This document shows, one piece after another, positions 5,408-41,834 of a DNA stretch of 64,000 nt; the stretch's first letter is position 1, and every line of letters starts with the position of its first letter. Source of the DNA: Lysobacter enzymogenes. Lineage in GTDB: Bacteria > Pseudomonadota > Gammaproteobacteria > Xanthomonadales > Xanthomonadaceae. The position numbers and the translations under genes are program-made. The notes beneath the pieces are model-generated. The model made no database searches. It was not told the origin of the DNA and saw only the letters and a program-made list of their open reading frames with translations. The stretch is from positions 186,001 through 250,000 of the forward strand of contig NZ_FNOG01000008.1 of the NCBI RefSeq assembly GCF_900106525.1. Reading direction: 5' to 3'.

Positions 5408-5914
5408 TCAGCGCGACGCGGCCATCGCCTGCGCGCGCACCACCAGGGTCTTGGGAAAACGGTCGTGCCACGCGGTCGCGCGCGCGGGGTCGCCGAACAG
5501 GATGGTGATCGGTTCGAACGGCACCTGACGCACCAAGGTGCGTCCCAGCACCTGGCCCCAGCTCGGCGGGCGGCCTTGTTCGTCGACCACGCGGGTGCTG
5601 GTGACCAGCTTGCCCAGGGTGACGCCGAAGATGCCTTCCATCGGCACGTAGTAGGCGAACTGCACGCACAGCATGATCAGCGACATGGTCGGGTTCCACG
5701 CCGCGTCGGGCGCGGCGGGCTGCAGCAGCTTGAGCACGTCGGGGTCGAACGTGGACCACACGCTGAGGCCGCCGAGCGCGGCGGCGGCGCAGATCGCGCT
5801 GTCGATCAGCAGGTTGACCAGACGCTGGGCGCGGCTGGCCGGCACCAGCGCGGCGATGCGCTCGGCGCGGTGCTGCGACGGGGAAAACGCGGGGGATTCG
5901 TTCGGATCGTTCAT
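5408..5914 (-). CDS. RDD family membrane protein
   Basis: A 168-residue membrane protein starting at ATG 5914 (MNDPNESPAFSPSQHRAER). The family signature begins with ASRAQRLVNLLIDSAICAAA (the R...D of the RDD name), then comes a second hydrophobic helix (MSLIMLCVQFAYYVPMEGIF) and the conserved GVTLGKLVTSTRVVDEQGRPP and VLGRTLVRQVPFEP segments. RDD proteins are small polytopic membrane proteins, some of which take part in ion or solute transport; the substrate here cannot be read from sequence. The open frame extends far upstream over the TPR gene, but that extension is antisense shadow. The PEBP gene ends 56 bases upstream in the same direction. Confidence 0.85.
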   Translation of the reverse strand: MNDPNESPAFSPSQHRAERIAALVPASRAQRLVNLLIDSAICAAAALGGLSVWSTFDPDVLKLLQPAAPDAAWNPTMSLIMLCVQFAYYVPMEGIFGVTLGKLVTSTRVVDEQGRPPSWGQVLGRTLVRQVPFEPITILFGDPARATAWHDRFPKTLVVRAQAMAASR

Positions 5915-5970
5915 GGCGCTGTTCGGTGGATGCGTCGCGGCCGGCGCGAGACGCGCGCCGGCCGCGCTGC

Positions 5971-6597: not shown

Positions 6598-6747
6598 GGC
6601 GAACTCCTGGTGCGAGTCGGGCTGACGAGTCGGGTCTCGGGCGCCGCCGCGCGCGGGCGCGGCGGCGCAAGCGCCCATGATCGCATCGGCGCATGACGGC
6701 GACCGCGACCGCCGCCGCATCGGCGGCGGCAGCGCGGCGCGCGCGGC

Positions 6748-8820: not shown

Positions 8821-8935
8821 GTGACGTGCTTCGCGCTGGATAAGAGGGGGGATTGTAGGGGCGCGCGCGGTTTTGCGCTGTTTCGCCCTGTGCCGGCGCG
8901 GCGCGGGCGGCGTGCGGGCCGCCGCGGCGGCGCGC

Positions 8936-9928: not shown

Positions 9929-9935
9929 CGGCGCC

Positions 9936-10742
9936 TCAGCCCGCCATCGCCTCGACGATGCGCTGCCGCGCCAGTTCGGCGATGCGGCGGCGGCCGTCGG
10001 CTTCGCCGGGGCCGATCGGCGTCAGGAAGTGCACTTCGGCCAGTCGCCCGGGCTCGCCGAGCAGGCGCAGGAAGTTGGCGAAGAAGCTTTCGCGGCCCTG
10101 GAACGCGACCACCGCCTGGGCGTCGCCGCGCTCGCCGTAGCGCAGCGCCACCGGCTGCACCGGCACGCCGGCCTCGACCGCGGCCATGAAGATGCGCGCG
10201 TGGAACGGGCCGATCTCGCGGCCACCGCGGGTGCCGCCTTCGGGGAACACGCCGACCGAGCGGCCCGCGCGCAGGCGCGAGAGCATTTCGTGCAGCACGC
10301 CGCCGAGCGATTCGGTGCTGCCGCGCGAATGGAAGATGGTGTGGCCGCGCGCGGCCAGCCAGCCGACCACCGGCCAGCCGGCGATTTCGCGCTTGGCGAC
10401 GAAGCCCATCATGCGTTGGCTGTGCAGGATCTCGATGTCGACCCAGCTGACGTGGTTGGCGACGAACAAGGTCGCACCCGCCAGCGGCGTACCGATCCGG
10501 CGCAGGCGGAAGCCGAAGATCCGCATCAATCCGGCCGACCAGGCGCGGATCGTGCGGTGTTCCAGGGTTTCCTCGCCCCAAGGGATGCGGGCGGTGGGCA
10601 GGGTGATCAGCAGCAGGACCAGCGGCAGGTGGACGAACACGTGCCACAGCAGCAAGGGCGTACGGATCAGGTAACGCAGCGCGCGCGCGGCCGACGCGCC
10701 GGTGGGCGCGACCGCGCCGGCGTGGGGAGGCGGCGCATTCAT
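9936..10742 (-). CDS. 1-acyl-sn-glycerol-3-phosphate acyltransferase (PlsC family)
   Basis: About 268 residues from ATG 10742 (MNAPPPHAGAVAPTGASAAR). One N-terminal membrane segment (about residues 25-50) is followed by the acyltransferase core: NHVSWVD (the NHx4D catalytic box), a KREIAGWPVVGW segment, FHSRGSTES, and VFPEGGTRGG (the phosphate-binding FPEGT-like box). The family transfers an acyl group to lysophosphatidic acid at the inner membrane; the exact acceptor here is not certain, because close relatives act on ornithine lipids or other lysophospholipids. ATG 10802 is in frame but adds a basic leader before the conserved region. It is the first gene of a two-gene unit with the YheT-like hydrolase. 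Confidence 0.88.
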   Translation of the reverse strand: MNAPPPHAGAVAPTGASAARALRYLIRTPLLLWHVFVHLPLVLLLITLPTARIPWGEETLEHRTIRAWSAGLMRIFGFRLRRIGTPLAGATLFVANHVSWVDIEILHSQRMMGFVAKREIAGWPVVGWLAARGHTIFHSRGSTESLGGVLHEMLSRLRAGRSVGVFPEGGTRGGREIGPFHARIFMAAVEAGVPVQPVALRYGERGDAQAVVAFQGRESFFANFLRLLGEPGRLAEVHFLTPIGPGEADGRRRIAELARQRIVEAMAG

Positions 10743-10920
10743 TGCGTGCACGATACCGAAGCGCCGCCGCAGCGGCCAGCGGCTTTTGGCGGAACGCCGC
10801 ATCCGGCGAGGCCACGGGCGGCGACGGTCGCGGCGGCGGTGAAATATCGACCGGATCGGCGGGCGGCGTTTGAAACGCCGGCGCCGTGCGGGAGGATGAA
10901 CCGTGGCAGAGCCTTCACTG

Positions 10921-11000
10921 TAGGAGGGCCTTCAGGCCCGATGCTTTCGGCTCAGGTCGCTGCATCTGGAACAAGAGCCTCGGGCCTGAAGGCCCTCCCA
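10921..11000. repeat. Palindromic intergenic repeat (GGAGGGCCTTCAGGCCC family)
   Basis: Two inverted arms, 10921-10940 and 10981-11000, each containing GGAGGGCCTTCAGGCCCG or its complement, separated by a 40-base loop. Each arm is itself partly palindromic (GGGCCTTCAGGCCC). It has the form of a REP-like element, and only this copy was seen in the window. Confidence 0.8.
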
Positions 11001-11019
11001 CAACAAGCCCTGCCACAAC

Positions 11020-11044
11020 AGGCCCTGCCTGGGCGGCAGGGCCT
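11020..11044 (-). terminator. Hairpin downstream of the sugar permease
   Basis: A perfect 10-bp stem (AGGCCCTGCC / GGCAGGGCCT) with a 5-base loop lies 12 bases beyond the permease stop. There is only a weak T-rich tail on the minus strand, so termination is probable but not certain. Confidence 0.4.
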
Positions 11045-11056
11045 GCCGGGCGGTCT

Positions 11057-12370
11057 TCAGTTGGCCTCGACCGCCGGCGCCGCGCCGGCGCCGCTGCGCT
11101 CGCGCAGGCCGACCTTATGCCCGACCTTGGCGAAGAACAGGATGTACAGGTAGCACGGCACCATCAGCGCCAGGAACACCGCCTGGAAGTCGAAGTGCTG
11201 CTTGAGCACCGCGTACAGCTGCGGCACCACCGCGCCGCCGGCGATGCCCATGACCATGATCGCCGAGCCGGTTTCGGTGTGGCGGCCCAGGCCGCGGATG
11301 CCGAGCGGGAAGATCGCCGGCCACATCATCGCGTTGGCGAAGCCCAGCGCGGCGACGAACAACACCGAGACCAGGCCGTGGGTGGCGAACGCGCCGATGC
11401 TGAGCAGCACGCCCAGCACCGCCGACCACGACAGGTAGCGCTCCTGCGAGATGAAGCGCGGGATCACGATCAGGCCGACGATGTAGCCCAGCAGCATGCC
11501 GCCCAGGGTGAAGGAGGTGAAGAACTTGGTCTTGTCCAGCGGCAGGCCGAAGCTGTGGCCGTAGGTGCCGATGGCGTCGCCCGCCATCACCTCCACGCCG
11601 ACGTAGACGAAGATGCACAGCGCGCCGAGCCACAGGTGCGGATAGCCGAACAGGTTGCGGCGGCCGCCGCCTTGCTCGGCGCCGCCCTTGTTGACCTCGG
11701 CGCCGCGCAGTTCCGGCAGCGGCGAGAACAGCACGCCGACGGCCAGCAGCGCGAGCAGGCCGGCCATCAGCAGGTACGGGCCGTGGATGTTGGCGGCGAA
11801 TTCGTTGAGCAGTTGCTGCTTGGCCGCCGGGTCGGCGCCCTTGACCTGCTCGGCCAGGTCGCCCATGCCGTGCAGCACCAGGGTGCCGAGCACGATCGGC
11901 GCGAGGATGCCGGCGATCTTGTTGCAGATGCCCATCACCGCGATGCGCTGGGCCGCGCCGTCGATCGGGCCGAGGATGCTGATGTAGGGATTGACCGCGG
12001 TCTGCAGCACCGCCAGGCCGGCGCCGATCACGAACAGGCCGCCGAGCGCGCCGGGGTACCAGCGCTGGGTGGTGAACTCGCCGAACACCGCCGCGCCGAT
12101 CGCCATCACCAGCAGGCCCAGGGCCATGCCGCGCTTCATCCCGGTGAAGCGCAGGATCGAGGAGGCCGGCAGGGCCAGGAAGAAATACGACAGATAGAAC
12201 GCCATCGGCACCAGGAAGGCGCCGACTTCGTCGAGCTCGAAGGCGAGCTGGGCGAAGGCAATCAGCGGGCCGTTGAGCCAGGTGACGAAGCCGAAGACGA
12301 AGAACAGCGCGCCGATGATCGCGATCGACATGAGATAGCGCGGCGGCGCGCTGGCGTTTGCAACCGACAT
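11057..12370 (-). CDS. nagP: FucP/GluP-type MFS sugar permease, probable N-acetylglucosamine permease
   Basis: A 437-residue MFS protein of the fucose/glucose:H+ symporter branch. ATG 12370 (MSVANASAPPRYLMSIAIIG) follows GGAGGGGA. Twelve hydrophobic segments are apparent; family marks are FFVFGFVTWLNGPLIAFAQL near the N-terminus, VLQTAVNPYISILGP in the middle, and AMMWPAIFPLGIRGLGRHT in the C-terminal half. It imports a sugar across the inner membrane. The divergent neighbour is a sugar kinase, followed by a TonB-dependent receptor and a GH20 hexosaminidase. That set matches the GlcNAc/chitobiose loci of Xanthomonas and Shewanella, where this permease type is NagP, so GlcNAc is the likely substrate. 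Glucose or galactose remains possible from sequence alone. An operator-like half palindrome (12448-12463) lies 78 bases upstream. Confidence 0.82.
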   Translation of the reverse strand: MSVANASAPPRYLMSIAIIGALFFVFGFVTWLNGPLIAFAQLAFELDEVGAFLVPMAFYLSYFFLALPASSILRFTGMKRGMALGLLVMAIGAAVFGEFTTQRWYPGALGGLFVIGAGLAVLQTAVNPYISILGPIDGAAQRIAVMGICNKIAGILAPIVLGTLVLHGMGDLAEQVKGADPAAKQQLLNEFAANIHGPYLLMAGLLALLAVGVLFSPLPELRGAEVNKGGAEQGGGRRNLFGYPHLWLGALCIFVYVGVEVMAGDAIGTYGHSFGLPLDKTKFFTSFTLGGMLLGYIVGLIVIPRFISQERYLSWSAVLGVLLSIGAFATHGLVSVLFVAALGFANAMMWPAIFPLGIRGLGRHTETGSAIMVMGIAGGAVVPQLYAVLKQHFDFQAVFLALMVPCYLYILFFAKVGHKVGLRERSGAGAAPAVEAN

Positions 12371-14066: not shown

Positions 14067-16679
14067 ATGAAAGCGCGCAAGACCCTATTGTCCGCCAGCA
14101 TCGTCGCGGCCCTGAGCTTGGCCTCGGGCGTCGCGATGGCGCAGGACGCACCGGCCGCGGCCGCGCAGGCCAAGGACCTCGACGCCGTCGTGGTCACCGG
14201 CATCCGCGCCAGCCTGGAGAAGTCGCTCGACACCAAGCGGGCCAACGTAACCGTGTCGGAGGCGATCACCGCCGAAGACATCGGCAAGTTCGCCAACACC
14301 AACGTCGCCGAAGCCATGTCGCAGATTCCCGGCGTCGTGCTCGACCGCCGCTTCGGCCAGGGCGAGCGCGTCAGCATCGACGGCACCGACCCCAGCCTCA
14401 ACCTCAGCTTCCTCGACGGCCACCCGGTGGCGCAGTCGATCTGGCTGTACGGCGAGCAGCCCAACCGCGGCTTCGACTACACCCTGCTGGCGCCGGAAAT
14501 CCTCGGCCGGCTGGAAGTCATCAAGTCCTCCGAAGCGCGCCTGACCGAAGGCAGCCTCGGCGGCACGGTGCTGATGCACACGCGCAAGCCGCTGGACATG
14601 GAGGCCAACTCCATCGCCGGCTCGCTGAGCTTCAACTACAACGACCAGGGCGGCGACACCCGTCCCAGCGGCTCGTTCATGTACAGCTGGAAGAACGCCG
14701 AGGAAAACTTCGGCTTCAACTTCGCCGCGCAGCACTACGAAGAAACCGTGGACCGCCAGGGCGTGGAAGTGTTCGGCTATCAGAAGGCCAGCGCCTTCCC
14801 GAACCAGACCGGCGCGGCGGCGAACATCGACGTGCCCAACTTCGTCAACGCCGCCTGGTTCCAGCAGACCCGCGAGCGCAACAGCGCCAACCTCAACCTG
14901 CAGTTCAAGCCGAGCAACGAGCTGGAGTTCAACCTGAGCGGCTTGTTCATCCGCGAGAGCTTCGACAACTACAACCAGTCGTTCTACAACTTCCTGACCC
15001 AGCGTCCGGGCGCGGTGGATCGTCTGGGCACCAGCGGCGGCGTCGCCACCAGCGGCCACAGCAACGCCAACCCGGTGTTCTACGACAACAACGTGCGCGT
15101 GTCCGAGCCCGAAACCAAGGGCATCGACCTGACCGGCAAGTACCAGACCGACGCCTGGGGCGTGTCCGGCCAGATCGGCCACAGCAAGTCGGAGAACTCG
15201 CTGGAGCAGTGGTTCATCGAACCGGTCTACACCGGCGGCTACAGCTTCGACCTCAAGCGCGGCCTGACCTTCGACAACCCGGCGGCGGCCAGCAACCCGG
15301 CCAACTGGGCCGGCGACGGCTTCATGGGCAACTACGGCGTCATCGACACCGAGACCAAGGACACCTACGGCCAGCTGGACTTCAACGTCCGCTTCGACAG
15401 CGTGTTCAACAACCTCAGCTTCGGCGCGCGTCGCGGCAAGCACGAGGAAGACTACCGCCAGAACGTCTACGTCGGCCTGCCGGTCGCCGACCTCAACACC
15501 GTCGGCACGATCAACCCGGTCAGCCTGCGCGACCTCAACGCCGGCTCCGGCCGCCATGTGCAGGTCGGCCGCCAGAACGTGATCGACTACGTCAACCGCT
15601 ATCGCGGCGGGCTGACGCCGGATCCGGCCAGCTTCCTCAACAACACCTTCAGCATCGAGCAGACCAACACCGCCGCCTACGTCCAGGCCGATTTCTCCGC
15701 GGGCGGTTTCCGCGGCAACGTCGGCGTGCGCTACGTGGAGTCCAAGACCGATGGCCAGGGCTACGCTTACGGCGGCACCCCGACCCTGACCGACCTGGCC
15801 TCCAAGCTGGTGCGCAGCTCGAAGAAGGAAGACTTCGTGCTGCCGTCGTTGAACGTGGTCTACGACACCGGCAACGACGTGCTGCTGCGCTTCGGCGCGG
15901 CCAAGGTCGTGGCCTGGGCGCCGTACAACCAGCTGGTCGGCAACACCTTCCTCAACGACAGCACCTTCACCGGCAGCGGCGGCAGCTCCAACCTCGACGC
16001 CTACGAGTCGACCAACTACAGCCTGTCGGCCGAGTGGTACTTCGCCGAGCAGTCGGTGCTGGCGGCGTCGGTGTTCTACAAGGACATCGACAACTACATC
16101 ACCAGCGAAGCGGCGGTCGAGCGTCAGTTCAACTCCAACGCGACCACCGCGCCGGCGTTCTACCAGTCGCGCATCGTCGGCACCAACGGCTGCACCACCG
16201 ACGGTTTCTGCAACTACAGCATCTTGCGCCCGGTCAACGCCGGCAAGGGCAAGGTCAAGGGCTTCACCGTCAGCTACCAGCAGCCGTTCGGCGACACCGG
16301 CTTCGGCCTGACCGCGAACTACACCTACGCCGACGGCGAAGGCGCCAACGGCACCGACCTGCCGTACCAGTCGCGCGATGCGGTGGCGATCAGCCCGTAC
16401 TACGAGCGCGGCCCGCTGTCGGCCCGCGTCAGCTACAACTGGCGCAGCGACTACCTGGCCGGCGGCTACGTGGCCGGCGCGCCGCCGGCGAGCGTGGACG
16501 ACTACGCCGAGCTCGGCGCGAGCGTGAGCTGGACCTTCGACGACCGCCTGACGGTGGCCCTGGAAGGCATGAACCTGCTCGACTCCGAGTACAAGCAGTA
16601 CCTGGGCCGCGAAGAGCTGGTCGCCCAGCGCTTCCACACCGGGCGCCGCTTCATGGCCTCGTTCCGCTTCAAGTTCTGA
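14067..16679 (+). CDS. TonB-dependent outer-membrane receptor (amino-sugar locus)
   Basis: An 870-residue outer-membrane receptor with a signal peptide (residues 1-25, ending GVAMAQ) and a TonB-box-like AVVVTGIRAS near residue 41. The plug domain includes VTVSEAITAEDIGKFANTN and VAEAMSQIPGV, and a long beta-barrel ends in the required aromatic residue (FRFKF). The layout fits the large receptors that xanthomonads use for oligosaccharide uptake. A very strong ribosome-binding site (GAGGGAGGAACA) precedes ATG 14067. It sits 217 bases after the kinase and 182 before the GH20 gene, so uptake of chito-oligosaccharides is the most economical role. The ligand cannot be read from the sequence. A terminator follows, so the hexosaminidase probably has its own promoter. 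Confidence 0.9.
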   Translation: MKARKTLLSASIVAALSLASGVAMAQDAPAAAAQAKDLDAVVVTGIRASLEKSLDTKRANVTVSEAITAEDIGKFANTNVAEAMSQIPGVVLDRRFGQGERVSIDGTDPSLNLSFLDGHPVAQSIWLYGEQPNRGFDYTLLAPEILGRLEVIKSSEARLTEGSLGGTVLMHTRKPLDMEANSIAGSLSFNYNDQGGDTRPSGSFMYSWKNAEENFGFNFAAQHYEETVDRQGVEVFGYQKASAFPNQTGAAANIDVPNFVNAAWFQQTRERNSANLNLQFKPSNELEFNLSGLFIRESFDNYNQSFYNFLTQRPGAVDRLGTSGGVATSGHSNANPVFYDNNVRVSEPETKGIDLTGKYQTDAWGVSGQIGHSKSENSLEQWFIEPVYTGGYSFDLKRGLTFDNPAAASNPANWAGDGFMGNYGVIDTETKDTYGQLDFNVRFDSVFNNLSFGARRGKHEEDYRQNVYVGLPVADLNTVGTINPVSLRDLNAGSGRHVQVGRQNVIDYVNRYRGGLTPDPASFLNNTFSIEQTNTAAYVQADFSAGGFRGNVGVRYVESKTDGQGYAYGGTPTLTDLASKLVRSSKKEDFVLPSLNVVYDTGNDVLLRFGAAKVVAWAPYNQLVGNTFLNDSTFTGSGGSSNLDAYESTNYSLSAEWYFAEQSVLAASVFYKDIDNYITSEAAVERQFNSNATTAPAFYQSRIVGTNGCTTDGFCNYSILRPVNAGKGKVKGFTVSYQQPFGDTGFGLTANYTYADGEGANGTDLPYQSRDAVAISPYYERGPLSARVSYNWRSDYLAGGYVAGAPPASVDDYAELGASVSWTFDDRLTVALEGMNLLDSEYKQYLGREELVAQRFHTGRRFMASFRFKF

Positions 16680-16711
16680 TCCTTCGGTAAGGCGATCGAC
16701 CGCTAGACCCG

Positions 16712-16747
16712 ACAAGCCCGGCATGCGCATGCCGGGCTTGTTTTTTG
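16712..16747 (+). terminator. Rho-independent terminator after the TonB receptor
   Basis: A perfect stem ACAAGCCCGGCATG / CATGCCGGGCTTGT (the central CGCGCATG-like bases fold back) followed by a T run (16740-16746). It starts 33 bases after the receptor stop. Confidence 0.9.
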
Positions 16748-16861
16748 GGCGCGGGAAAAGTCCGCCGCGCCGCGCTACGCAAACGCACAAACAAACAAGA
16801 CTCGGCCGCCGCGCCTGCGCCATGGTGTGCGGCCGAACGCCTTGCCTGGAGTCCGTCCACG

Positions 16862-19276
16862 ATGAAGACGCGCCACGCTTTCGCCCCGCCCGTTCGCACC
16901 GCTTTCGTCCACGCCGGCCTGGCCTGCGCGCTGACCCTGGCCCTGACCGCGTGCGAACGCGGCGCGCCGGCGCCGTCGGCGCAAGCGCCCGCGCCGGCCG
17001 CAGCGAAGCCCGCCGCGCAGCCGCGCGTCTCCCATCCCAGCGCGATCCTGCCGCGCCCGGCCAAGTTCGTGCCCGGCCAGGGTGCGTTCGTGTTCGGGCC
17101 GGACACCGCGGTGGTGGTCGCCGCCGACCAGCCCGGCGCGCGCCGGGTCGGCGAATTCTTCGCCCAGCGCGTGCAGGCGCTGCGCGGCTTCGCGCCGAAG
17201 CTGCAAGAAGGCAGCGGCGCGCTCAAAGGCGCGGTGGCGCTGAGCCTGGACCCCAAGCTGCCGATCGGCGAGGAAGCCTACGTGCTCGACATCGGCCAGG
17301 ACGGCGCCAAGATCAGCGCGCGCAGCGAGGCCGGCCTGTTCTACGGCGCGGTGAGCCTGTGGCAGCTGGCCACCGCCGACGGCGCCCAGGGCGAGACCCG
17401 GATCGCCGCGCAGCGCATCGAGGACGCGCCGGCGTATCGCTGGCGCGGGCTGATGCTCGATGTCGCGCGCCATTTCCGCAGCGTCGATGAGGTCAAGGCG
17501 GTGCTCGACCAGATGGCGCTGCTCAAGCTCAACAGCTTCCACTGGCATCTCACCGACGACCAAGGCTGGCGCATCGAGATCAAGAAATTCCCGCGCCTGA
17601 CCGAAGTCGGCGGCTGCCGCATCCGCGCCGGCGCCAACGGCCGCGATGCGCAGGGCAAGCCGGTCCAGTACTGCGGCTACTACACCCAGGAACAGATCCG
17701 CGACGTGGTCGCCTACGCCGCCGCGCGCCACATCAACGTGGTGCCGGAGATCGAGATGCCCGGCCATGCGCAGGCCGCGATCGCCTCGTATCCCGCGCTC
17801 GGCGTCGGCGACGTGCTCAAGCAGGTGCCGCCGGTGTCGCCGGACTGGGGCGTGCACACCTATCTGTTCAATCCGCAGGACGAGACCTTCGTCTTCCTCA
17901 CCGGCGTCCTCGACGAAGTGGTCGGGCTGTTCCCGTCCAAGTACATCCACATCGGCGGCGACGAAGCGGCCAAGGACCAGTGGAAGGCCTCGCCGATGGT
18001 GCAGAACAAGATCAAGTCGCTCGGCCTGAAGGACGAGGCGGCGCTGCAGAGCTGGTTCGTCGGCCGCATCGGCGCGCACCTGCAGCAGCGCGGCCGGGTG
18101 CTGGTGGGCTGGGACGAAATCCTCGAAGGCGGCAAGCTGCCGGCCGACGCCACGGTGATGTCCTGGCGCGGCGACGCCGGCGCGCTGCAGGCCGCGCGCG
18201 ACGGCCACGACGTGATCCTCGCGCCCGACCGCAAGCTGTACCTGGACTACGCGCAGAGCGAGCGCGACGACGAACCCAGCGGCCGCTACCCGGTCGCCAC
18301 CTTGCGCGCGTTCTACGAATTCCCGATGACCCCGCCGGGCATGGACGCCGAGCAGGCCAAGCGCGTGATCGGCGCGCAAGGCAACCTGTGGACCGAGCAC
18401 AAGCGCAGCTTCGATCAGGTGCAGCTGGCGCTGCACCCGCGCCTGGACGCGCTGGCCGAGGTGGTGTGGTCGCCGGCGCAGGGCCGCGACTGGAACGACT
18501 TCCAGCGCCGGCTGGTGCCGCAGTTCGATCGCTACCGCGCGCTCAAGGTCGGCTTCAGCGACGCCGCCTACGCGGTGGAAACCAAGGCCGAGCCCGACGC
18601 CGGCGGCGCCCGGGTGACCCTGTCCAGCCAGACCGGCTTCGGCGAGATCCGCTACCGCACCGACGGCGGCGCGCCGGACGCGTCCTCGCCGGTGTACGCG
18701 CAGCCGTTGCAGGCGACGCTGCCGCTGGACGTGGTCGCCACCACCTTCTTCGACGGCCACCCGGTGTCGGCGCCGCGCCGGTTCCAGGCCCAGACCGCCG
18801 CCGACCTCAGCGAGCGCGGCAGCGCCCAGCTCAAGGCCTGCCGCGAGGGCTACAACCTGCGCCTGGAAGACGACGCCGCGCGCGACGGCGGCCGCGAGGG
18901 CGCGCGCGCCGCGCTGACGGCCAACCTGATCGACCCGTGCTGGATCTACCCCGGCGCGCGCCTGGACGGCGTCGCCGCGCTGCGCGCCACGGTCGCGCAG
19001 GTGCCGTACAACTTCCAGCTCTGGCACGACACCGAGCAGATCGTGACCCGCAAGGCCCAGCCCGACGCGGCACTGGAAGTGCGCCTGAACGACTGCAAGA
19101 GCGCACCGATCGCGCGCCTGCCGCTGCAGCCGGCGCTCGGCCGCGACGGCCTGACCGTGCTGGAGGCGCCGCTGCCGAAGCTGTCGGGCACGCACGATCT
19201 GTGTTTCGTGTTCGCCAGCGGCGCCCACGACCCGCTGTGGGCGCTCGACCGGGTCAGCCTGCGACCCGCGCCCTGA
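16862..19276 (+). CDS. Beta-N-acetylhexosaminidase lipoprotein (GH20)
   Basis: An 804-residue enzyme from ATG 16862 (MKTRHAFAPPVRTAFVHAG), with signal peptide and LTAC lipobox near residue 34. After a Pro/Ala linker come the GH20 N-terminal alpha/beta domain (about 60-185), the TIM barrel (about 190-560) and C-terminal domains with a chitobiase-type CTSS-like segment (GFGEIRYRTDGGAPDAS). Catalytic marks are HWHLTDDQGWRIEIKKFP (His227) and HIGGDEA (Asp367-Glu368), the substrate-assisted pair of GH20. It should cleave terminal GlcNAc from chito-oligosaccharides in the periplasm or at the outer membrane. That supplies the sugar for the permease and kinase encoded upstream, with the receptor next door bringing in the oligomers. 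Confidence 0.93.
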   Translation: MKTRHAFAPPVRTAFVHAGLACALTLALTACERGAPAPSAQAPAPAAAKPAAQPRVSHPSAILPRPAKFVPGQGAFVFGPDTAVVVAADQPGARRVGEFFAQRVQALRGFAPKLQEGSGALKGAVALSLDPKLPIGEEAYVLDIGQDGAKISARSEAGLFYGAVSLWQLATADGAQGETRIAAQRIEDAPAYRWRGLMLDVARHFRSVDEVKAVLDQMALLKLNSFHWHLTDDQGWRIEIKKFPRLTEVGGCRIRAGANGRDAQGKPVQYCGYYTQEQIRDVVAYAAARHINVVPEIEMPGHAQAAIASYPALGVGDVLKQVPPVSPDWGVHTYLFNPQDETFVFLTGVLDEVVGLFPSKYIHIGGDEAAKDQWKASPMVQNKIKSLGLKDEAALQSWFVGRIGAHLQQRGRVLVGWDEILEGGKLPADATVMSWRGDAGALQAARDGHDVILAPDRKLYLDYAQSERDDEPSGRYPVATLRAFYEFPMTPPGMDAEQAKRVIGAQGNLWTEHKRSFDQVQLALHPRLDALAEVVWSPAQGRDWNDFQRRLVPQFDRYRALKVGFSDAAYAVETKAEPDAGGARVTLSSQTGFGEIRYRTDGGAPDASSPVYAQPLQATLPLDVVATTFFDGHPVSAPRRFQAQTAADLSERGSAQLKACREGYNLRLEDDAARDGGREGARAALTANLIDPCWIYPGARLDGVAALRATVAQVPYNFQLWHDTEQIVTRKAQPDAALEVRLNDCKSAPIARLPLQPALGRDGLTVLEAPLPKLSGTHDLCFVFASGAHDPLWALDRVSLRPAP

Positions 19277-26324: not shown

Positions 26325-28238
26325 ATGGCCTCAGGACTCATCGACACCGCCCGCGCCGACGACGCGCTCGACGCCCGGCGCCACTGCGTGCATCGCCTGT
26401 TCGAACGCCAGGCCGCGGCCACGCCCGATGCGATCGCGGTGGAAACGCATTCGTCGGCATCGCGTTCGCTGGCGTCGGGCACGTCGCAGGCCGGCAGCGT
26501 GCGCCTGAGCTACGGCGAACTCGAGCGTCGCGCCAATCGCCTGGCCCATCGCCTGATCGCCGCCGGCGTGCGCCGCGGCGACCGCGTCGCATTGAGCCTG
26601 GAGCGCTCGCCGTGGCTGCCGGTGGCGCTGCTGGGCGTGCTCAAGGCCGGCGCCGCCTATCTGCCGATCGACACCCGCGCGCCGGCGGCGCGCCGCGCGT
26701 TCGTGCTGCGCCAGGCGCAGGCGCGCGCATGGCTGTGCGATGCCGGTTATCCAGATGGCGAACACGACCGCGCCGACGGTGGCGGCGATTTCGACGACGC
26801 GCATGGCGCGCCGGTGCGCATCGACCTGGACGAGCGCGACGACAGCTGGACCCGCTTCGCCGAACAGCCGCCGGCGCTGGACGCCGACGGGCGCGACCTG
26901 ATGTACGTGCTGTACACCTCCGGCACCACCGGCGAACCCAAGGGCGTGATGCTCGAACACGCCGGCGTCGCCGCGCTGCTGCAGTGGATGATCCGCGCCT
27001 ACGCGTTCGACGGCGCCGACCGCGTCCTGCAGAAAACGCCGTACACCTTCGACGCTTCGGTGTGGGAACTGTTCCTGCCGCTGCTTAGCGGCGGCACCGT
27101 GGTGCTGGCGGAGCCCGATGCGCACCGCGATCCGGCCTACCTGTCGGCCACCGTCGCCGCCGCCGGCATCACCACATTGCAACTGGTGCCGTCGATGCTG
27201 CGGCATGTGCTCGACCAACCCGAGTGGTCGCGTTGCGGCGGGCTGCGCCACCTGTTCTGCGGCGGCGAAGCGCTGACCGGCGATCTGGTCGCGGCGGTGC
27301 ACGCGCAATTCGACATTCCGGTGCACAACCTCTACGGCCCTACCGAAGCCTCGGTGCAAGTGCTGACCTGGACCTGCCGGCGCGGCCAGGCGCATGCGCA
27401 CGTGCCGATCGGCCGCGCAATTCCCGGCGTGGTCACGCACGTGTTCGACGCCGACGGCCGTCCGGTCGCACCCGGCGAAACCGGCGAACTGCACCTGGGC
27501 GGCATCGCTCTGGCGCGCGGCTATCTCGAGCGGCCCGAGCTGACCGCGCAACGCTTCCTGCAACGCCCCGGCGAGCCCGCCCCGCATCACCGGCTGTACC
27601 GCACCGGAGATCTGGTGCGCGAGGACGCCGACGGTTGCTTCCATTACGCCGGCCGCATCGACGATCAGGTCAAGGTGCAGGGCAATCGGGTCGAACTGGG
27701 CGAGATCGAAGCCTGCCTGGCCCGGGCGGCCGGCGTGTCCGCCGCCGCGGTGCTGGCCGAAACCTCGGCCGAGACCGGCGCGGTGCGGCTGGTCGCGTTC
27801 GTGCGCGCCGGCGCCGAGGTCGCGCCGCGCCTGGCCGAATTGCGCGCGCACCTGGCCGCGCATCTGCCCGACTACATGATTCCGGCGCAGTTCCGCCGCG
27901 TCGACCGCTTCCCGCTGACCGCGCACGGCAAACTCGACAAGGCCGCGCTGCGCGCCGGCCCGAGCGCGCCGTTGGCCGGCGAGAGCGCCGGCGCCGCCGC
28001 GGCCAACGAACTCGAACGCGCGCTGTCGGCGCTGTGGTCGGATGCGCTGGGCGTGGACGAAGTCGGCGTCGACCAGGACTTCTTCGAACTCGGCGGCGAT
28101 TCGGTCAGCGGCTTGCTGATGATCGCCAAGGCGCGCCGCCAGCGCATCGTGCTGACGCCGCAGGAACTGTTCCGGCTGCGCCGCATCGACGCCATCGCCT
28201 CGGCCATCGGCCAGCGCCAGGCGGCCGCTTCGGCCTGA
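26325..28238 (+). CDS. Stand-alone NRPS loading protein (A-T)
   Basis: A 637-residue A-T didomain. ATG 26325 follows AAAGGAAG; the frame is open far upstream but without motifs. Adenylation marks: LSYGELERRANRLAHRL, LKAGAAYLPID, YTSGTTGEPKG (about residue 200), FDASVWELF, NLYGPTEAS, YRTGDLVR and GRIDDQVKVQGNRVELGEIE; Lys in NGKLDK-type AHGKLDKAAL. The carrier domain has FFELGGDSVSGL with the phosphopantetheine Ser593. Reading the ten specificity positions by hand gives D-A-W-Q-F-G-L-V-Q-(K), closest to the Gln-type code DAWQFGLIDK that I remember, with Q for D at position nine. No condensation domain is present, so the amino acid is either the first residue of the chain or is passed to another carrier by a transferase. 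The large synthetase starts 93 bases downstream. Confidence 0.93.
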   Translation: MASGLIDTARADDALDARRHCVHRLFERQAAATPDAIAVETHSSASRSLASGTSQAGSVRLSYGELERRANRLAHRLIAAGVRRGDRVALSLERSPWLPVALLGVLKAGAAYLPIDTRAPAARRAFVLRQAQARAWLCDAGYPDGEHDRADGGGDFDDAHGAPVRIDLDERDDSWTRFAEQPPALDADGRDLMYVLYTSGTTGEPKGVMLEHAGVAALLQWMIRAYAFDGADRVLQKTPYTFDASVWELFLPLLSGGTVVLAEPDAHRDPAYLSATVAAAGITTLQLVPSMLRHVLDQPEWSRCGGLRHLFCGGEALTGDLVAAVHAQFDIPVHNLYGPTEASVQVLTWTCRRGQAHAHVPIGRAIPGVVTHVFDADGRPVAPGETGELHLGGIALARGYLERPELTAQRFLQRPGEPAPHHRLYRTGDLVREDADGCFHYAGRIDDQVKVQGNRVELGEIEACLARAAGVSAAAVLAETSAETGAVRLVAFVRAGAEVAPRLAELRAHLAAHLPDYMIPAQFRRVDRFPLTAHGKLDKAALRAGPSAPLAGESAGAAAANELERALSALWSDALGVDEVGVDQDFFELGGDSVSGLLMIAKARRQRIVLTPQELFRLRRIDAIASAIGQRQAAASA

Positions 28239-28331
28239 GCCGCCGCGTCGATCCGTTTCGTCGATCCGCCCCCGGTCGCCATCCGCCGCCGCCCCGCAGC
28301 GCGGCGACTTCCCCCTGCATCGGATGCCCTC

Positions 28332-34601
<6,270 letters not shown>

Positions 34602-34623
34602 TCCCCTCGCCCAGGAGCCCCGA

Positions 34624-35025
34624 ATGCGCATCCGCAATCCCGCCGCCGTGCACGCGCCCGTCGCCGCCTATTCCCATCAGATCGAAGTCGCCGGGCCGGC
34701 GCGCTGGCTGGTGCTGTCCGGCCAGATCGGCCGCCGCGCCGACGACAGCGTGCCGGACGATCCGGTCGAACAGATCCAGGTGGCGCTGGACAACATCGCC
34801 GCCAACCTGCACGAGGCCGGCATGGACGTCGGCGATGTGGTCAAGCTGACCGTGTACCTGGTCGGCGACGTCGACGCGGCGCGCCGCCGCGCGGCGTTCG
34901 ATGCATGGCTCGGCGCGCATCGCCCGTGCATGACCTTGCTCTACGTCGCCGGCCTGGCCGCGCCGGTCTATCGCGTCGAGATCGACGCGATGGCCGCCGC
35001 GCCCACGTCCGGCGCGCCCGACTGA
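34624..35025 (+). CDS. Rid family protein (cytoplasmic), NRPS cluster
   Basis: A 133-residue YjgF/Rid-family protein with AGGAG before ATG 34624, starting 22 bases after the synthetase stop, so certainly in the same operon. Family features are PVAAYSHQIEV, WLVLSGQIGRR, EQIQVALDNIAANLHEAG, DVVKLTVYLVGDVD and VYRVEIDAMAA. At the position of the catalytic arginine of true RidA (the PARS motif) the sequence reads HRPCMTLLYVAGL. When the following VA-x-L is aligned, the arginine falls on Met, so 2-aminoacrylate deaminase activity is not expected. Such proteins recur in natural-product clusters with mostly undefined roles, perhaps hydrolysis or tautomerisation of an imine or enamine intermediate. 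Serine activation by the synthetase makes a dehydroalanine-type intermediate conceivable. Confidence 0.9.
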   Translation: MRIRNPAAVHAPVAAYSHQIEVAGPARWLVLSGQIGRRADDSVPDDPVEQIQVALDNIAANLHEAGMDVGDVVKLTVYLVGDVDAARRRAAFDAWLGAHRPCMTLLYVAGLAAPVYRVEIDAMAAAPTSGAPD

Positions 35026-35053
35026 TTCCCCCTCCGCCCAGAAGGAACGCCCC

Positions 35054-35965
35054 ATGTCCGCCCAGCCCGCCGACCGCGCCTACGATTCCGGCCGCATCCA
35101 TACCCACACCCAGTCCGACGGCTACGTCTCGCACTATCGCCAGTGGGGCGAGCAGGACGCACAGGACCTGATCGCGATCCTGCACGGCGGGATCAGCCAT
35201 TCGGCCTGGCAGGCGCCGCTGGCGCAGGCCGCGGTGGCGCACGCGGGCGTGGGTTTCGTCGCGCTGGACCGGCGCGGCTCCGGCCTCAACCAGCCCGGCC
35301 GCGGCCATCTGCCGTCGGCCGAGCGCGAACTCGACGACGTGGCTTCGCTGCTGCGCGCACTGGCCCGTCCGGGCCGGCGCCTGCACCTGGCCGGCTGGTG
35401 CTTCGGCGGCCAGATCGCGACCCTGGCCGCCGAGCGCGTGGCCGCCGACCGCTTGCTGTCGAGTCTGGTGCTGATCGCGCCGGGCTTCGTCTTCACCGAG
35501 CGCTATGCCGACGTGCTGCGGTTGTCGATGCAGGCGGTGGCCGAGGTGGTGGAAGAACTCGGCGCGCCGCCGCAGGACCGCGCGTTCGTGCCGGTACCGT
35601 TGCAGATCGCCGACTTCACCGCCGATCCGGACTGGCAGCGTTACGTCGCCGACGACGAGCTGCGCCTGCGCCGGGTGTCGCAGAGCACGGTCAAGGTGTG
35701 GAGCGAGCTGGCGGAGCGTTCGCGCAGCGGCGCGCTGGCGCAGATCGGCGAACTGCCGGTGCTGGCAGTGTTCGGCCGCCAGGACCGGCTGGTCGACAAC
35801 GACGGCGTGGCGGCGATGCTGCGCGCGCAGTTGCGCGGCCCGCGTCCGGACATCGTCTACCTGGATGCGCCGCACGCGATCCAGTTCGAATCGCCGCGGC
35901 GGTTGGCCGAACTGGTGGTCGGCTTCCTGCCGCGCGGGCGCGTCGCGCTCGCCGCCAGCGCTTGA
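35054..35965 (+). CDS. Alpha/beta hydrolase with Cys nucleophile, candidate SyrC/CmaE-like aminoacyltransferase
   Basis: A 303-residue alpha/beta hydrolase behind an AGAAGGA site, 28 bases after the Rid gene. Fold marks: LIAILHGGISHSAWQ (oxyanion strand), VALDRRGSGLN, nucleophile elbow AGWCFGGQ with Cys116 instead of Ser, acid strand VFGRQDRLV (Asp244), and DAPHAIQFE (His274). The triad is therefore Cys-Asp-His. Cys in this place is the hallmark of SyrC and CmaE, which shuttle aminoacyl groups from a stand-alone A-T protein to an A-less carrier, and also of some unusual thioesterases. Both an A-T protein and an A-less carrier are encoded in this cluster, and the synthetase lacks a thioesterase. 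So this protein is either the trans-loading transferase (preferred) or a release enzyme. Neither is proven by sequence. Confidence 0.8.
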   Translation: MSAQPADRAYDSGRIHTHTQSDGYVSHYRQWGEQDAQDLIAILHGGISHSAWQAPLAQAAVAHAGVGFVALDRRGSGLNQPGRGHLPSAERELDDVASLLRALARPGRRLHLAGWCFGGQIATLAAERVAADRLLSSLVLIAPGFVFTERYADVLRLSMQAVAEVVEELGAPPQDRAFVPVPLQIADFTADPDWQRYVADDELRLRRVSQSTVKVWSELAERSRSGALAQIGELPVLAVFGRQDRLVDNDGVAAMLRAQLRGPRPDIVYLDAPHAIQFESPRRLAELVVGFLPRGRVALAASA

Positions 35966-35979
35966 CCGCTGCGCCCGCC

Positions 35980-37167
35980 ATGAACCTCGCCGCGCGTCTG
36001 CGCGATCTGAGCCTGCTGTCGGCCAGCACCATCACCATCATCGGCACCACGGTCATCGCCGCGTCGCTGCCGCAGATGGCCGAGGCCTTCGCCGGGCAGG
36101 CGCATGCCGCGTTCCTGGTCAAGATCGCGCTGACCCTGCCGGCGCTGGCGGCCGGGATCGCGGCGCTGTCGACCGGCTGGGCGATCGAGCGGGTCGGGCG
36201 CAAGCGGCTGTTCGTCGCCGCGCTGGCGCTGTACGCGCTGGCCGGCGCCGCCGGCTACGCGCTGCAATCGCTGCCCGCGCTGCTGCTGAGCCGCTTCGCG
36301 CTGGGCCTGTCGATCGCCGCGATCATGACCTGCGCGACCACCCTGATCGCCGACTACGCGCAGCGCGACGGACTCGGCGGGGCGCTGGGGCGGCAGTCGC
36401 TGTTCATGGCGCTGGGCAACATCGTGTTCGTGTTCCTCGGCGGCGTGCTCGCCGGCGTGCACTGGCGGCTGCCGTTCCTGATCTACCTGGTGGCGCTGGC
36501 GATCCTGCCCGGCGTGGCCTGGCTGGTGCGCGACCTGCCGGCCGCGCCGGCCGCCGGCGCGAGCCAACGCCCGTCGCTGCGCACCGCCGCACCGATCTGC
36601 GCGCTGGGACTGGCCAACATGCTCGCCTACTTCATGGTGCCGGTGTATCTGCCGTTCCATCTGCGCGGCTTTCCCGACGCCAGCAGCGTGCGGGTGGGCT
36701 CGCTGCTGGCGCTGGTCGGGCTGGCCTGGGGCGCGGCCTCGCTGGCCTACCCGCGCGCGGCCGCGCGCCTGCGCCACGGCCAGGTGCTGGCGCTGGGCTT
36801 CGGCCTCAGCGGCGCCGGCCTGCTGCTGCTCGGCGGCGCCGGCGACTATCCGCAGGCCTGCCTGGGTCTGGTCGCGATCGGCTTCGGCCTGGGCATGAAC
36901 GTGCCCAACTTCAACGCCTGGATGCTGTCGCGCACCCCGGCGCCGGCGCGCGCGCGCGCGATCGGCTGGCTGGTGTGCTGCGTGTTCCTGGGCCAGTTTT
37001 TTTCGCCGGTGCTGACCCAGCCGCTGGTCGCCGCGCTCGGCATCGGCCACGCCTATCTCGCCGCCGGTGCCGCCGCGCTGGCGGTCGCCGCCGGGGCGCT
37101 GGCGCTGTCGGCGCGCACGCGACAATCTGCCGCGACCCAATCCCCCGTGCCCAGGAGCGCTCCATGA
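35980..37167 (+). CDS. MFS exporter of the NRPS cluster
   Basis: A 395-residue MFS transporter from ATG 35980 (MNLAARLRDLSLLSASTITI), 14 bases after the hydrolase stop. About twelve membrane segments are visible. The loop 2-3 motif A reads GWAIERVGRKRLFV, and LSRFALGLSIAAIMTCATTL fits helix 4 of the DHA1 drug-efflux branch. The last Pro/Ser-rich residues are cytoplasmic. The stop overlaps the start of the following Rid gene (ATGA). Its place in the cluster indicates export of the peptide product and possibly self-resistance; the substrate is not readable from the sequence. Confidence 0.88.
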   Translation: MNLAARLRDLSLLSASTITIIGTTVIAASLPQMAEAFAGQAHAAFLVKIALTLPALAAGIAALSTGWAIERVGRKRLFVAALALYALAGAAGYALQSLPALLLSRFALGLSIAAIMTCATTLIADYAQRDGLGGALGRQSLFMALGNIVFVFLGGVLAGVHWRLPFLIYLVALAILPGVAWLVRDLPAAPAAGASQRPSLRTAAPICALGLANMLAYFMVPVYLPFHLRGFPDASSVRVGSLLALVGLAWGAASLAYPRAAARLRHGQVLALGFGLSGAGLLLLGGAGDYPQACLGLVAIGFGLGMNVPNFNAWMLSRTPAPARARAIGWLVCCVFLGQFFSPVLTQPLVAALGIGHAYLAAGAAALAVAAGALALSARTRQSAATQSPVPRSAP

Positions 37168-37628
37168 CGATCCGCATCGCCCTAGCCTGCGCTTTCGCCG
37201 CTTGCGCGGCCGCGCCGGCCGCCCACGCGAGCGACGACCACGCTGCGCGCTATCTCAATCCCGCGACCTTGCCCAAACCCAACGGCTACAGCCACGCGGT
37301 GTCGGTGGCGGCCGGCCGCACCGTTTACGTGTCCGGGCAGATCGGCACCGATGCGCGCGGCGAATTGGCCGGCGACGGCTTCCAGGCGCAGGCCGAGCAG
37401 GCATTCGCCAATCTCGACGCCGCGCTCAAGGCCGCCGGCGCCTCGTTCGCCGACGTGGTCAAGCTCACCTTCTACGTCACCGACATGCGCCAGATCGCGG
37501 CGGTGCGCACCGCCCGCGACAAGTACCTGGTTCCAGGCCAGGCGCCGGCCAGCACCGCGGTGGAGGTGACTGGCTTCGTCAAACCCGGCGCGCTGGTGGA
37601 AGTGGACGCGATCGCGGTGGTGCGCTGA
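37164..37628 (+). CDS. Periplasmic Rid family protein, end of NRPS operon
   Basis: A 154-residue Rid protein with a clear signal peptide (MTIRIALACAFAACAAAPAA, cleavage near HASDD), unlike the first Rid protein of the cluster. Family marks are GYSHAVSVAAGRTVYVSGQ, FANLDAALKAAGASFADVVK and LVEVDAIAVV. The catalytic-arginine region reads APASTAVEVTGF, so the arginine of RidA is replaced by Ser. The start overlaps the exporter stop as ATGA and has CCAGGAG upstream. A periplasmic Rid protein coupled to an exporter suggests that a final maturation or hydrolysis step takes place after export; this is inference from location and signal only. Confidence 0.88.
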   Translation: MTIRIALACAFAACAAAPAAHASDDHAARYLNPATLPKPNGYSHAVSVAAGRTVYVSGQIGTDARGELAGDGFQAQAEQAFANLDAALKAAGASFADVVKLTFYVTDMRQIAAVRTARDKYLVPGQAPASTAVEVTGFVKPGALVEVDAIAVVR

Positions 37629-38686: not shown

Positions 38687-40447
<1,761 letters not shown>

Positions 40448-40561: not shown

Positions 40562-40859
40562 AAAACCAATCGACGACAAACCCAACCTATCGAGTACAAA
40601 ACGCGAAAAATTTTCGCGCCGCCACAACCGCACCCGCGAAGGTTTCGCTATTTCGCCGCCGCCGCGCCTTTCGCGTTGACAGCCCGCCGCCCGCCGTCCA
40701 ACACTGCGCCGGCATCGCGCTGCGATGCCATCCACTTGCGCGACGCCATCGCGGCGCCGCGCGATCCGGACCCGAGGGGTGCTGCGACGGAGTCCATGCT
40801 CCGCCACGCTCGGGCCGCGATGCCGAGCAAGGGCGCCCTCCCGATTTCCTGGAGGCGTC

Positions 40860-41834
40860 ATGTCCCGTTCCGATTCCATTCTTCCCCCGCCCGCGACCGA
40901 TCCGCGCGCGCCGCAGTTCGTCCGTTTCGATCCGCCGCTGTCGCTGGCCCTGGTCGTCTCCGACGTCCAGCCCGAACCGCACGAAGACGACGCCGGCCTG
41001 ATCGCCGCGCTGCGCGAGCACGGCATCCACGTCCACGCCCGCATCTGGAGCGACCCGGCGGTGGACTGGGCCGCGCACGATGCGCTGCTGGTGCGCAGCA
41101 CCTGGGATTACTTCGAACGCTACACCGAGTTCCTGCAGTGGTATCAGCGCATCGATGCGCTGCGCTGCCCGATCGCCAACCCGCTGCCGCTGCTGGTGTG
41201 GAACAGCGACAAGCGCTATCTGCTGGAACTGGCCGCGCAAGGCGTGGCGATCATCCCGACCGTGCACGCGCGCGGCGCCGAACTCGACGCGGCGCTGGCG
41301 CCGTTGCAGGGCGAGGTGGTGGTCAAGCCCAGCGTCAGCGGCGGCGCCTGGAACACGGTGCGCGGGCGCATCGGCGAGGCGGCGTTCGCGCAGGCGCTGG
41401 CCGGCCTGCCGCGCACGCTGGATTACCTGATCCAGCCGTTCGTGCCGCAGGTGGTCGACGACGGCGAGTGGTCGCTGCTGTTCTTCGGCGGCGTCTACAG
41501 CCACGCCGTGCTGAAGAAGCCGGCGCGCGACGACTACCGCGTGCAGACCTATTTCGGCGGCAGCGCCGTGCCGACCGAACCGCCCGCGCACGTCGCCGCG
41601 GCGGCGCAGCGCGCGCTCGACACGGTGGCGGCGCTGGGCCATCGCGACCACGCCTACGTGCGCGTGGACGGCGTGGTGGTCGACGGCGAGTTCCGGCTCA
41701 TGGAGCTGGAGTTCATCGAACCCTTCCTGCATTTGGCCGCGCATCCGCCGGCGGCGCGCTTGTTCGCCGCGCAGTTGGCGCAGCGCTGGTCGGCGCTGCG
41801 CGAGCCGCAAGCGTCCGAGGCCGCGCCGGCCTGA
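40860..41834 (+). CDS. ATP-grasp domain ligase
   Basis: A 324-residue soluble protein from ATG 40860, behind TGGAGGCG. The N-terminal third is a Rossmann-like pre-ATP-grasp domain (ALVVSDVQPEPHEDDAGLIA, LLVRSTWDYFERYTEFLQW). The central and C-terminal parts fit the ATP-grasp fold: NSDKRYLLELAAQGVAIIPT, EVVVKPSVSGGAWNT (ATP-binding lysine), LIQPFVPQVVDDGEWSLLFF, and FRLMELEFIEPFLHL with the metal-binding acidic residues. The family (glutathione-synthetase-like/RimK-like) joins a carboxylate to an amine using ATP. Substrates are not predictable, but the flanking gamma-glutamyltransferase and cyclotransferase-like genes point to gamma-glutamyl or glutathione chemistry. The next gene starts 90 bases on. 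Confidence 0.85.
   Translation: MSRSDSILPPPATDPRAPQFVRFDPPLSLALVVSDVQPEPHEDDAGLIAALREHGIHVHARIWSDPAVDWAAHDALLVRSTWDYFERYTEFLQWYQRIDALRCPIANPLPLLVWNSDKRYLLELAAQGVAIIPTVHARGAELDAALAPLQGEVVVKPSVSGGAWNTVRGRIGEAAFAQALAGLPRTLDYLIQPFVPQVVDDGEWSLLFFGGVYSHAVLKKPARDDYRVQTYFGGSAVPTEPPAHVAAAAQRALDTVAALGHRDHAYVRVDGVVVDGEFRLMELEFIEPFLHLAAHPPAARLFAAQLAQRWSALREPQASEAAPA

Follow-up and report, generated by a model that had tools for sequence, protein, structure and literature searches.

A putative albopeptide-type synthetase line of Lysobacter enzymogenes with an A-less carrier and a candidate carrier-to-carrier transferase

The locus

A 64,000-nucleotide stretch of Lysobacter enzymogenes DNA (contig NZ_FNOG01000008.1, positions 186,001 to 250,000, from a genome of 6.26 Mb in 23 contigs; hereafter, the window) encodes a nonribosomal peptide synthetase (NRPS) whose second thiolation (T, carrier) domain, T2, has no adenylation (A) domain and lies between two condensation (C) domains predicted to be dehydrating. 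A stand-alone A-T protein is encoded upstream of it and an alpha/beta hydrolase with a Cys-Asp-His triad downstream (Table 1). These parts had been pointed out in a first-pass annotation of positions 26325..37628, and Pfam matches, alignments and coordinates agreed with it on the A-T protein, on the C-A-T-C-T-C order with its A-less second carrier (Ser1570) and on the triad, Cys116-Asp244-His274, which is kept in all six members of the hydrolase family (one of them seen as a C-terminal part). Two Rid-like genes and an MFS transporter in the same interval, as well as the dehydrating nature of C2 and C3, had been left out. The line very probably belongs to the albopeptide-type class of dehydropeptide synthetases, and we suggest that T2 is charged in trans, the chance that the hydrolase is the enzyme that loads it being about even.

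Table 1. Features of the synthetase locus, in positions of the window.
Feature	Positions	Strand	Basis
Stand-alone A-T protein, 637 aa	26325..28238	+	ATG at 26325, stop 28238; Pfam AMP-binding, AMP-binding_C, PP-binding
NRPS C1-A(Ser)-T1-C2-T2-C3, 2089 aa	28332..34601	+	Pfam: 3 Condensation, 1 AMP-binding, 2 PP-binding
C1, apparently elongation-type C domain	28401..29756	+	Solved relatives; dehydrating signature absent
C2, predicted dehydrating (CmodAA/DHC) C domain, RSALLAAH	31662..33011	+	Solved relatives; tree
Codon of Ser1570, phosphopantetheine site of A-less T2	33039..33041	+	RGVDSIS
C3, predicted terminal dehydrating C domain, KQVLLAGH	33252..34556	+	Solved relatives; tree
Rid-family (RidA-like) protein, 133 aa	34624..35025	+	Pfam Ribonuc_L-PSP
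Cys-type alpha/beta hydrolase, candidate carrier-to-carrier transferase, 303 aa	35054..35965	+	Pfam, triad, model
MFS transporter, probable exporter	35980..37167	+	Pfam MFS_1
Second Rid-family protein, signal-peptide-like N terminus (by eye)	37164..37628	+	Pfam Ribonuc_L-PSP

Distribution of the gene set

With the hydrolase as the query, we searched 297 genomes of the window's family (E<=1e-20) and 369 genomes of its class (E<=1e-12), scoring the best six to seven candidates per genome. At the family level the window's own genome alone matched (1/297), and at the class level five genomes did, its own and four with weak matches of 29-33% identity. A pattern scan of genome contigs returned 80 stretches, two of which encode hydrolase relatives, in Streptacidiphilus jiangxiensis (65% identity) and Streptomyces sp. 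DvalAA-14 (59%). Within the Streptacidiphilus family, 5/394 genomes matched at E<=1e-25, namely these two and the genomes G785, G1019 and G1012. A plasmid search returned no match at 1e-8 and six weak ones at E<=10. In all, there are six clusters in which the hydrolase is accompanied by homologous NRPS sequence and by an A-T protein (an A-T fragment in DvalAA-14). The clusters having been found with the hydrolase, its presence in 6/6 is given and the finding lies in its companions; the recurrence of the gene set in five further genomes is not chance. T2 is A-less in all five whole NRPSs, the window's and four others (by Pfam, and in G1019 by alignment).

The DvalAA-14 cluster is damaged as assembled, by misassembly or decay. 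Its A-T frame (L021:5295-8030) runs from the A domain straight into late C2, followed by T2-C3, so that A-T protein and NRPS are not separately readable, and its hydrolase (L021:8608-9452) is split over two frames. In G785, G1019 and G1012 the order is LAL ligase, NRPS, Rid-like protein, hydrolase, a membrane protein that by eye resembles another MFS transporter, A-T protein and a YqcI/YcgG protein. The gene for the last adjoins the A-T gene in each (L037:3752-4456, L040:3642-4343 and L043:4262-4966; identified by Pfam in one and by tblastn in two), and its product perhaps modifies the A-T residue. Upstream in Streptacidiphilus lie genes for a ketosynthase-acyltransferase-T (KS-AT-T) protein and for another that has two T domains, a C domain and an A domain; a longer chain may come in from these. 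Among the open reading frames inspected, in the three compact clusters and next to the window genes, no polyketide synthase was noticed, but no search was aimed at ketosynthases there. Streptacidiphilus also encodes, on the minus strand (L017:2862-5270), a protein in which a thioesterase-like N-terminal part is joined to an A domain of serine type (DVWHFSLIDK) and which lacks a T domain; that N-terminal part has the motif GYCSAA, with Cys at the nucleophile place by eye, and scores 15.8 bits with Pfam Thioesterase, below the cut-off.

Domains of the synthetase and the A-T protein

Among solved structures in the PDB, C1 is nearest to Txo2, Txo1 and TycC6 (219, 210 and 184 bits), against 50 bits for the C domain of the CDA synthetase, which we take to be of the starter type; McyA and AmbE gave 37 and 33 bits. 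In a larger alignment the window's C1 showed no dehydrating signature. C1 thus looks like an elongation-type domain by sequence, and these relationships do not support the acyl starter that the first-pass annotation had suggested for it. C2 was nearest to McyA (240 bits) and AmbE (169), the next being microcystin synthetase B (115), and C3 likewise to McyA (247) and AmbE (175), the next being Txo2 (97). CmodAA domains are reported to carry a [K/R]SVLLAAH-like motif before C5 (PMC11342130). The corresponding K/R and H signature was present in 11/15 C domains of the family (a set without the window's C1), comprising all five C2 and six C3 domains with four C1 domains remaining, and in 0/19 other C domains, a convenience set from loci fetched in earlier searches. 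As classed by signature and relatives, C2 and C3 are dehydrating (CmodAA) condensation domains. No A domain lies between C2 and T2, and Pfam found no thioesterase (TE) domain in the NRPS.

The A-domain codes were read by alignment, at the specificity-conferring positions. The A domain of the NRPS gave DVWHFSLIDK in the window and Streptacidiphilus and DVWHISLIDK in G785, G1019 and G1012, both of which we take to be serine-type codes, so that 5/5 NRPSs carry one. The code of the A-T protein, DAWQFGLVQK, is identical in the window and Streptacidiphilus and reads DAWQFGLIQ in DvalAA-14. Reported glutamine codes are DAWQFGLIDK (PMC2866473) and DAWQFGLINK (PMC3992020), and the window A-T protein reads as a predicted glutamine-activating enzyme. 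The A-T proteins of G785, G1019 and G1012 have the code DVEQVGGVTK and are ~35% identical to that of the window.

We also searched 297 genomes with C3 alone, scoring the best five candidates per genome; 36 matched at E<=1e-55, and members without the hydrolase may exist unseen. Twelve loci (L077-L088) were fetched on the strength of C3 similarity. In each, an A domain follows a C domain within one frame, and 11 of them hold a C domain with the dehydrating signature. One, L077 (genome G890, positions 964-11580), encodes A-T-C and then A-T-C-A-T-C with the codes DAFWVGGTFK, DVWHFSLVDK and DFWNVGMVHK, which we take to specify Val, Ser and Thr; a membrane-protein gene, transporter-like by eye, comes next. 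For albopeptide, the reported substrates are Val, Ser and Thr, the reported C1 is of LCL type, C2 and C3 are dehydrating, and AlbB-C3 dehydrates Thr and hydrolyses the product (PMC10880069). Since the layout, A codes and paired dehydrating C domains of L077 match what is reported for AlbA/AlbB, we term this line albopeptide-type, by codes and layout alone.

In a tree of C domains (63 leaves), the family's C2 clade joined the C2 of L077 (support 99) and its C3 clade joined C3, the terminal C domain, of L077 (support 91). The family's C1 domains formed a clade of their own (support 100) away from the C1 of L077, in a part of the tree where deeper nodes are weak. In a tree of A domains (53 leaves), the serine-type A domains fell together (support 78) with the ones from L077 and from three further loci. 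Compared with such a line, the Ser module, C2 and C3 have thus been retained in the window, and the A domain between C2 and T2 is missing. In the same tree, a clade of 23 leaves (support 100) united the Gln-class A-T proteins with the serine-type A domains; the second A-T type was placed elsewhere, the two not being each other's closest relatives. An origin of the A-T protein as the excised third module of an albopeptide-type line was rejected for the A domains, neither A-T type pairing with A3 of L077; its carrier, T0, taken alone, scored best with T3 of L077 (143 and 140, vs 133 and 119 for T2), which is a weak hint towards that origin.

Proposed assembly and the cargo of T2

From the serine-type A domain before T1, the dehydrating class of C2 and C3, the A-less T2 and the Cys triad, all seen in the sequence, we infer a transfer step, an order of assembly and a mode of release. 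The A-T protein would supply Gln as residue one to C1. Being of elongation type, C1 needs an aminoacyl or peptidyl carrier as donor; apart from the carriers of the synthetase, T0 alone was seen in the three compact clusters. The chain may well start with the A-T residue. C2 would then turn T1-bound Ser into dehydroalanine and join the chain to the residue on T2. T2 would have been loaded in trans, the most likely loader being the Cys hydrolase in the role of a carrier-to-carrier (trans-thioester) transferase. C3 would dehydrate and/or hydrolyse the T2-bound chain, as reported for AlbB-C3, and the MFS protein would export the product. The candidates for the cargo of T2 are Ser, favoured by the C3 signature, the A-T residue, or the chain itself, as reported for AmbE-T2. 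C3 pairs in the tree with a terminal C domain of the dehydrating kind, so that T2 would sooner be expected to carry a beta-hydroxy residue than Gln. Should C3 act like AlbB-C3, such a residue is required on T2, and Ser is available. The likelihoods that we attach to the alternatives overlap, some concerning the cargo and others the enzyme.

Tentatively, the A(Ser) domain of the synthetase itself may provide T2 with a further serine, either directly (trans-iterative loading) or from T1 via the hydrolase, which would yield two dehydroalanines from one A domain. The serine code in 5/5, the dehydrating signature of C3 kept in 6/6 and the kinship of C3 to a C domain behind a Thr module (L077) are consistent with this, as is the additional Ser-type A domain without a T domain in Streptacidiphilus. 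That domain, however, could instead serve the A-less first T domain (recognized by eye) of a neighbouring protein, and direct loading by the A domain would leave the hydrolase unexplained. Trans-iterative loading is reported to have been shown for CmnI (PMC12400406), and iteration has been proposed for SolG (PMC10204066).

The first-pass annotation had proposed a shuttle in which the residue of the A-T protein (by our reading Gln) is taken up at T0 by the hydrolase and delivered to T2, so that this residue enters at T2 rather than first. SyrC, CysB and LgnA act in this way with their A-T partners. The set does resemble SyrB1/SyrC/SyrE and CysH/CysB/CysK, A-T protein and hydrolase are together in 6/6 clusters, the divergence of the hydrolase follows the A-T class (see below), and Gln-class T0 scores lower with T1, the initiating carrier of the albopeptide-type line, than with that line's T2 and T3. 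However, Gln on T2 would give the conserved dehydrating C3 nothing to dehydrate, leaving it to serve for release only; for the elongation-type C1, the genes observed in the three compact clusters offer no evident donor; and the two classes of A-T protein are not sister to one another. This route, one of several readings of which residue T2 carries, appears rather unlikely to us. The shuttle as such fares better, being partly supported: A-T protein, Cys hydrolase and A-less carrier co-occur in all five readable cases, the arrangement is documented elsewhere, and carrier-to-carrier transfer by the hydrolase is plausible. It does not require the A-T residue as its cargo, and the C3 signature fits Ser better than Gln. 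The idea is reasonable, but the route of the A-T residue to T2 with an acyl starter at C1 is not its best-supported version.

A further alternative is that T2 holds no residue of its own but receives the finished chain from T1, passed on by the hydrolase or by C2, for hydrolysis by C3. This has a reported parallel in AmbE, in which the product, once dehydrated, is passed by transthioesterification from T1 to T2, a carrier that is likewise A-less (PMC10880069). In an earlier study, however, AmbB was found to load AmbE-T2 with Ala in trans (PMC4357302), and the dehydrating signature of C3 would be idle, so that we consider this version improbable.

The hydrolase

In the window, the hydrolase scores 88 bits with Pfam Hydrolase_4 (54-88 bits in family members) and 61 each with Abhydrolase_1 and Abhydrolase_6. 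With Pfam DLH (PF01738, cut-off 21), the window protein scored 21.7 without a passing stretch, Streptacidiphilus 21.8 with one, G785 18.2 and the DvalAA-14 part 20.6, the best stretches spanning 24-41 of 217 profile positions. These scores, with those for Pfam Thioesterase given below, show neither of the two placements that the first-pass annotation had named as refuting the shuttle, among dienelactone hydrolases or among release thioesterases. Among solved structures, the nearest sequence matches were ABHD6 and esterases or chloroperoxidases (~30 bits). An AlphaFold2 model built from three sequences (predicted local distance difference test score 62.5) has the alpha/beta hydrolase fold, with tied structural neighbours that include thioesterases and esterases.

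A cysteine nucleophile fits thioester-to-thioester transfer, and SyrC and CmaE reportedly use one. Two traits of SyrC, CmaE and CysB are found in the window hydrolase, namely Cys in an alpha/beta-hydrolase triad and, encoded beside it, a stand-alone A-T protein and a carrier with no working A domain; the second is to be read with the facts that the clusters were found with the hydrolase as the query and that the DvalAA-14 cluster is unreadable for T2. CysB itself is reported to be merely 20% identical to SyrC (PMC7966384). Several observations from sequence point to the hydrolase as the loader of T2. Cys is kept in 6/6 family members. In aligned stretches of five distant relatives, which are the four class-level matches and a second match in the window's own genome, the nucleophile position is taken by Ser (L002, L003) or Asp (L004-L006). 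Two types of A-T protein that are not closest relatives share one hydrolase family. Finally, an A-less T2 lies beside the hydrolase in 5/5, and three family hydrolases used as queries matched nothing within 13-20 kb (E<=1e-4) in the 12 loci L077-L088, in which a hydrolase farther off would be missed. The ratio of between-class to within-class identity was 0.773 for the hydrolase, vs 0.824-0.983 in 59 NRPS segments of 290 aa, which gives a hint only that hydrolase divergence follows the A-T class. A tracking of the A-T class by T2 was not significant, and the signal looked stronger only with the DvalAA-14 fragment mixed in.

Alternatively, the hydrolase might serve in release or proofreading, as a thioesterase whose substrate is bound to T0, T1 or T2, with T2 loaded by other means. 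The fold, the thioesterases and esterases among its structural neighbours and the lack of a TE domain in the NRPS would suit such a role, and LgnA is reported to combine transfer with editing (PMC8748450). The Pfam Thioesterase profile (PF00975, cut-off 26.4) is passed by the DvalAA-14 part (31.9 bits), but the three full-length members scanned fell below it (22.5 for the window protein, 23.9 and 12.8 for the others). Moreover, AlbB-C3, the reported counterpart of C3, itself hydrolyses the product (PMC10880069), and the family hydrolase is unmatched in the 12 related loci. We find this role somewhat doubtful.

Other points weigh against loading of T2 by the hydrolase. Since the distant relatives are only 23-30% identical when aligned, function is not readable from kinship. 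The bootstrap range of hydrolase divergence (0.69-0.86) overlaps that of the NRPS segments, which makes the test weak, and the divergence of T2 is unremarkable, 49 of 165 segments being as low (8/52 with DvalAA-14 included). The co-occurrence is partly circular, the hydrolase having been the query. Direct trans-loading by an A domain with no shuttle is reported for AmbB/AmbE-T2 (PMC4357302) and CmnA-A1/CmnI (PMC12400406). In bripiodionen biosynthesis, deletion of a type II thioesterase (TEII) homologue resembling LgnA reportedly had no effect, and thioesterase-like enzymes with a Cys nucleophile can be Dieckmann release enzymes, such as BpdE (PMC10956176). The case for the hydrolase as loader is built on sequence. 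A bolder form of it would make the hydrolase a third lineage of transferases, neither SyrC/CmaE-like nor TEII, with interchangeable A-T partners and Ser from the synthetase's own T1 feeding T2, so that one A domain gives two successive dehydroalanines before release by C3; this we consider unlikely.

Neighbouring genes

A homologue of the first Rid-like gene occurs in 5/6 clusters, in L021, L036, L039 and L042 besides the window; its frame is broken in L042, and the DvalAA-14 match crosses one TGA. The window protein has Met opposite Arg105 of E. coli YjgF (1qu9; number counted from the alignment), in the motif PCMT, which by eye is found in two further family members. Arg105 is a functional residue of RidA imine deaminases, and the window protein lacks it. 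We had considered this protein as an immunity protein against 2-aminoacrylate, the product releasing a poison of pyridoxal phosphate (PLP) enzymes, and dropped the idea because of the Met aligned at that position; a paper search for 2-aminoacrylate, RidA and nonribosomal peptide synthetase together matched no papers. A 68% identical Rid-like gene lies in genome G862 (L055:13706-14080), with no hydrolase match in the surrounding loci examined, and the Rid type is therefore not confined to the cluster. An MFS homologue 49% identical to that of the window lies beside the Streptacidiphilus hydrolase.

Elsewhere in the window, positions 40725-41834 encode an ATP-grasp protein with a sub-threshold match to the D-cycloserine synthetase DcsG (172 bits, cut-off 360), downstream of a gamma-glutamyltransferase gene (38687-40447); a search for the ATP-grasp protein in the loci that represent the other clusters gave no homologue at E<=1e-8. 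Positions 14067-19276 encode a TonB-dependent receptor followed by a GH20 beta-hexosaminidase, perhaps a locus for the uptake of chitin or N-acetylglucosamine.

Comparison with known systems

Movement of aminoacyl groups between carriers on separate proteins has been shown in few systems. The small conserved set described here, found in the window genome and five genomes of the Streptacidiphilus family, breaks the question down into its elements: the A-less carrier with an apparently dehydrating C domain on either side, a single candidate transferase, and A-T partners of two kinds. If our reading is true, an albopeptide-type line has lost an A domain and taken up trans-loading, and a hydrolase that loads T2 would make the little-understood hand-over from carrier to carrier testable. 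We found no description of this particular combination, or of its dehydropeptides, in the open-licence literature.

A free-standing A-T protein with an A-less module is described as a recurring type (PMC10956176), and with a transferase it is documented for SyrB1/SyrC/SyrE (PMC8949500). The window resembles SyrB1/SyrC/SyrE and CmaA/CmaE/CmaD in its stand-alone A-T protein, A-less carrier and candidate transferase; unlike in those systems, no halogenase was seen beside the window genes, and the acceptor lies between two dehydrating C domains. The first-pass annotation had held that both systems use exactly these three parts, which is right for the Syr proteins and only loosely so for Cma, where the acceptor is reported to be a stand-alone carrier, CmaD (PMC8748450). 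The cystobactamid proteins CysH/CysB/CysK-M3 likewise comprise a stand-alone loading protein, a separate transferase, whose transfer was reportedly seen by protein mass spectrometry (PMC7966384), and a module without a working A domain. However, CysK-M3 keeps an inactive A domain, and in the window the A domain is gone.

In the legonindolizidine system, LgnB/LgnA/LgnD are reported to comprise likewise an A-T protein, a separate shuttle, LgnA, and an A-less module (PMC8748450), and, as in the window, the A-less T lies in a C-T-C arrangement with a dehydrating C domain after it. LgnA is a TEII, though, and the A-less T is the first acceptor carrier in Lgn and the last in the window line. AmbB/AmbE share with the window a dehydrating C domain followed by an A-less T2, but AmbE ends in a TE domain and has a methyltransferase (MT) domain, its trans-loading was shown with no separate shuttle, and the substrates differ. 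The closest likeness is to AlbA/AlbB and L077, which, like the window line, have an LCL-type C1, a Ser module, a dehydrating C2, a third carrier and a terminal dehydrating C3. Compared with them, the window line is without the third A domain, its C1 is fused to the Ser module and falls outside the clade of the L077 C1, its A-T protein reads Gln, not Val, and the Cys hydrolase and, in 5/6 clusters, the Rid-like gene have been added.

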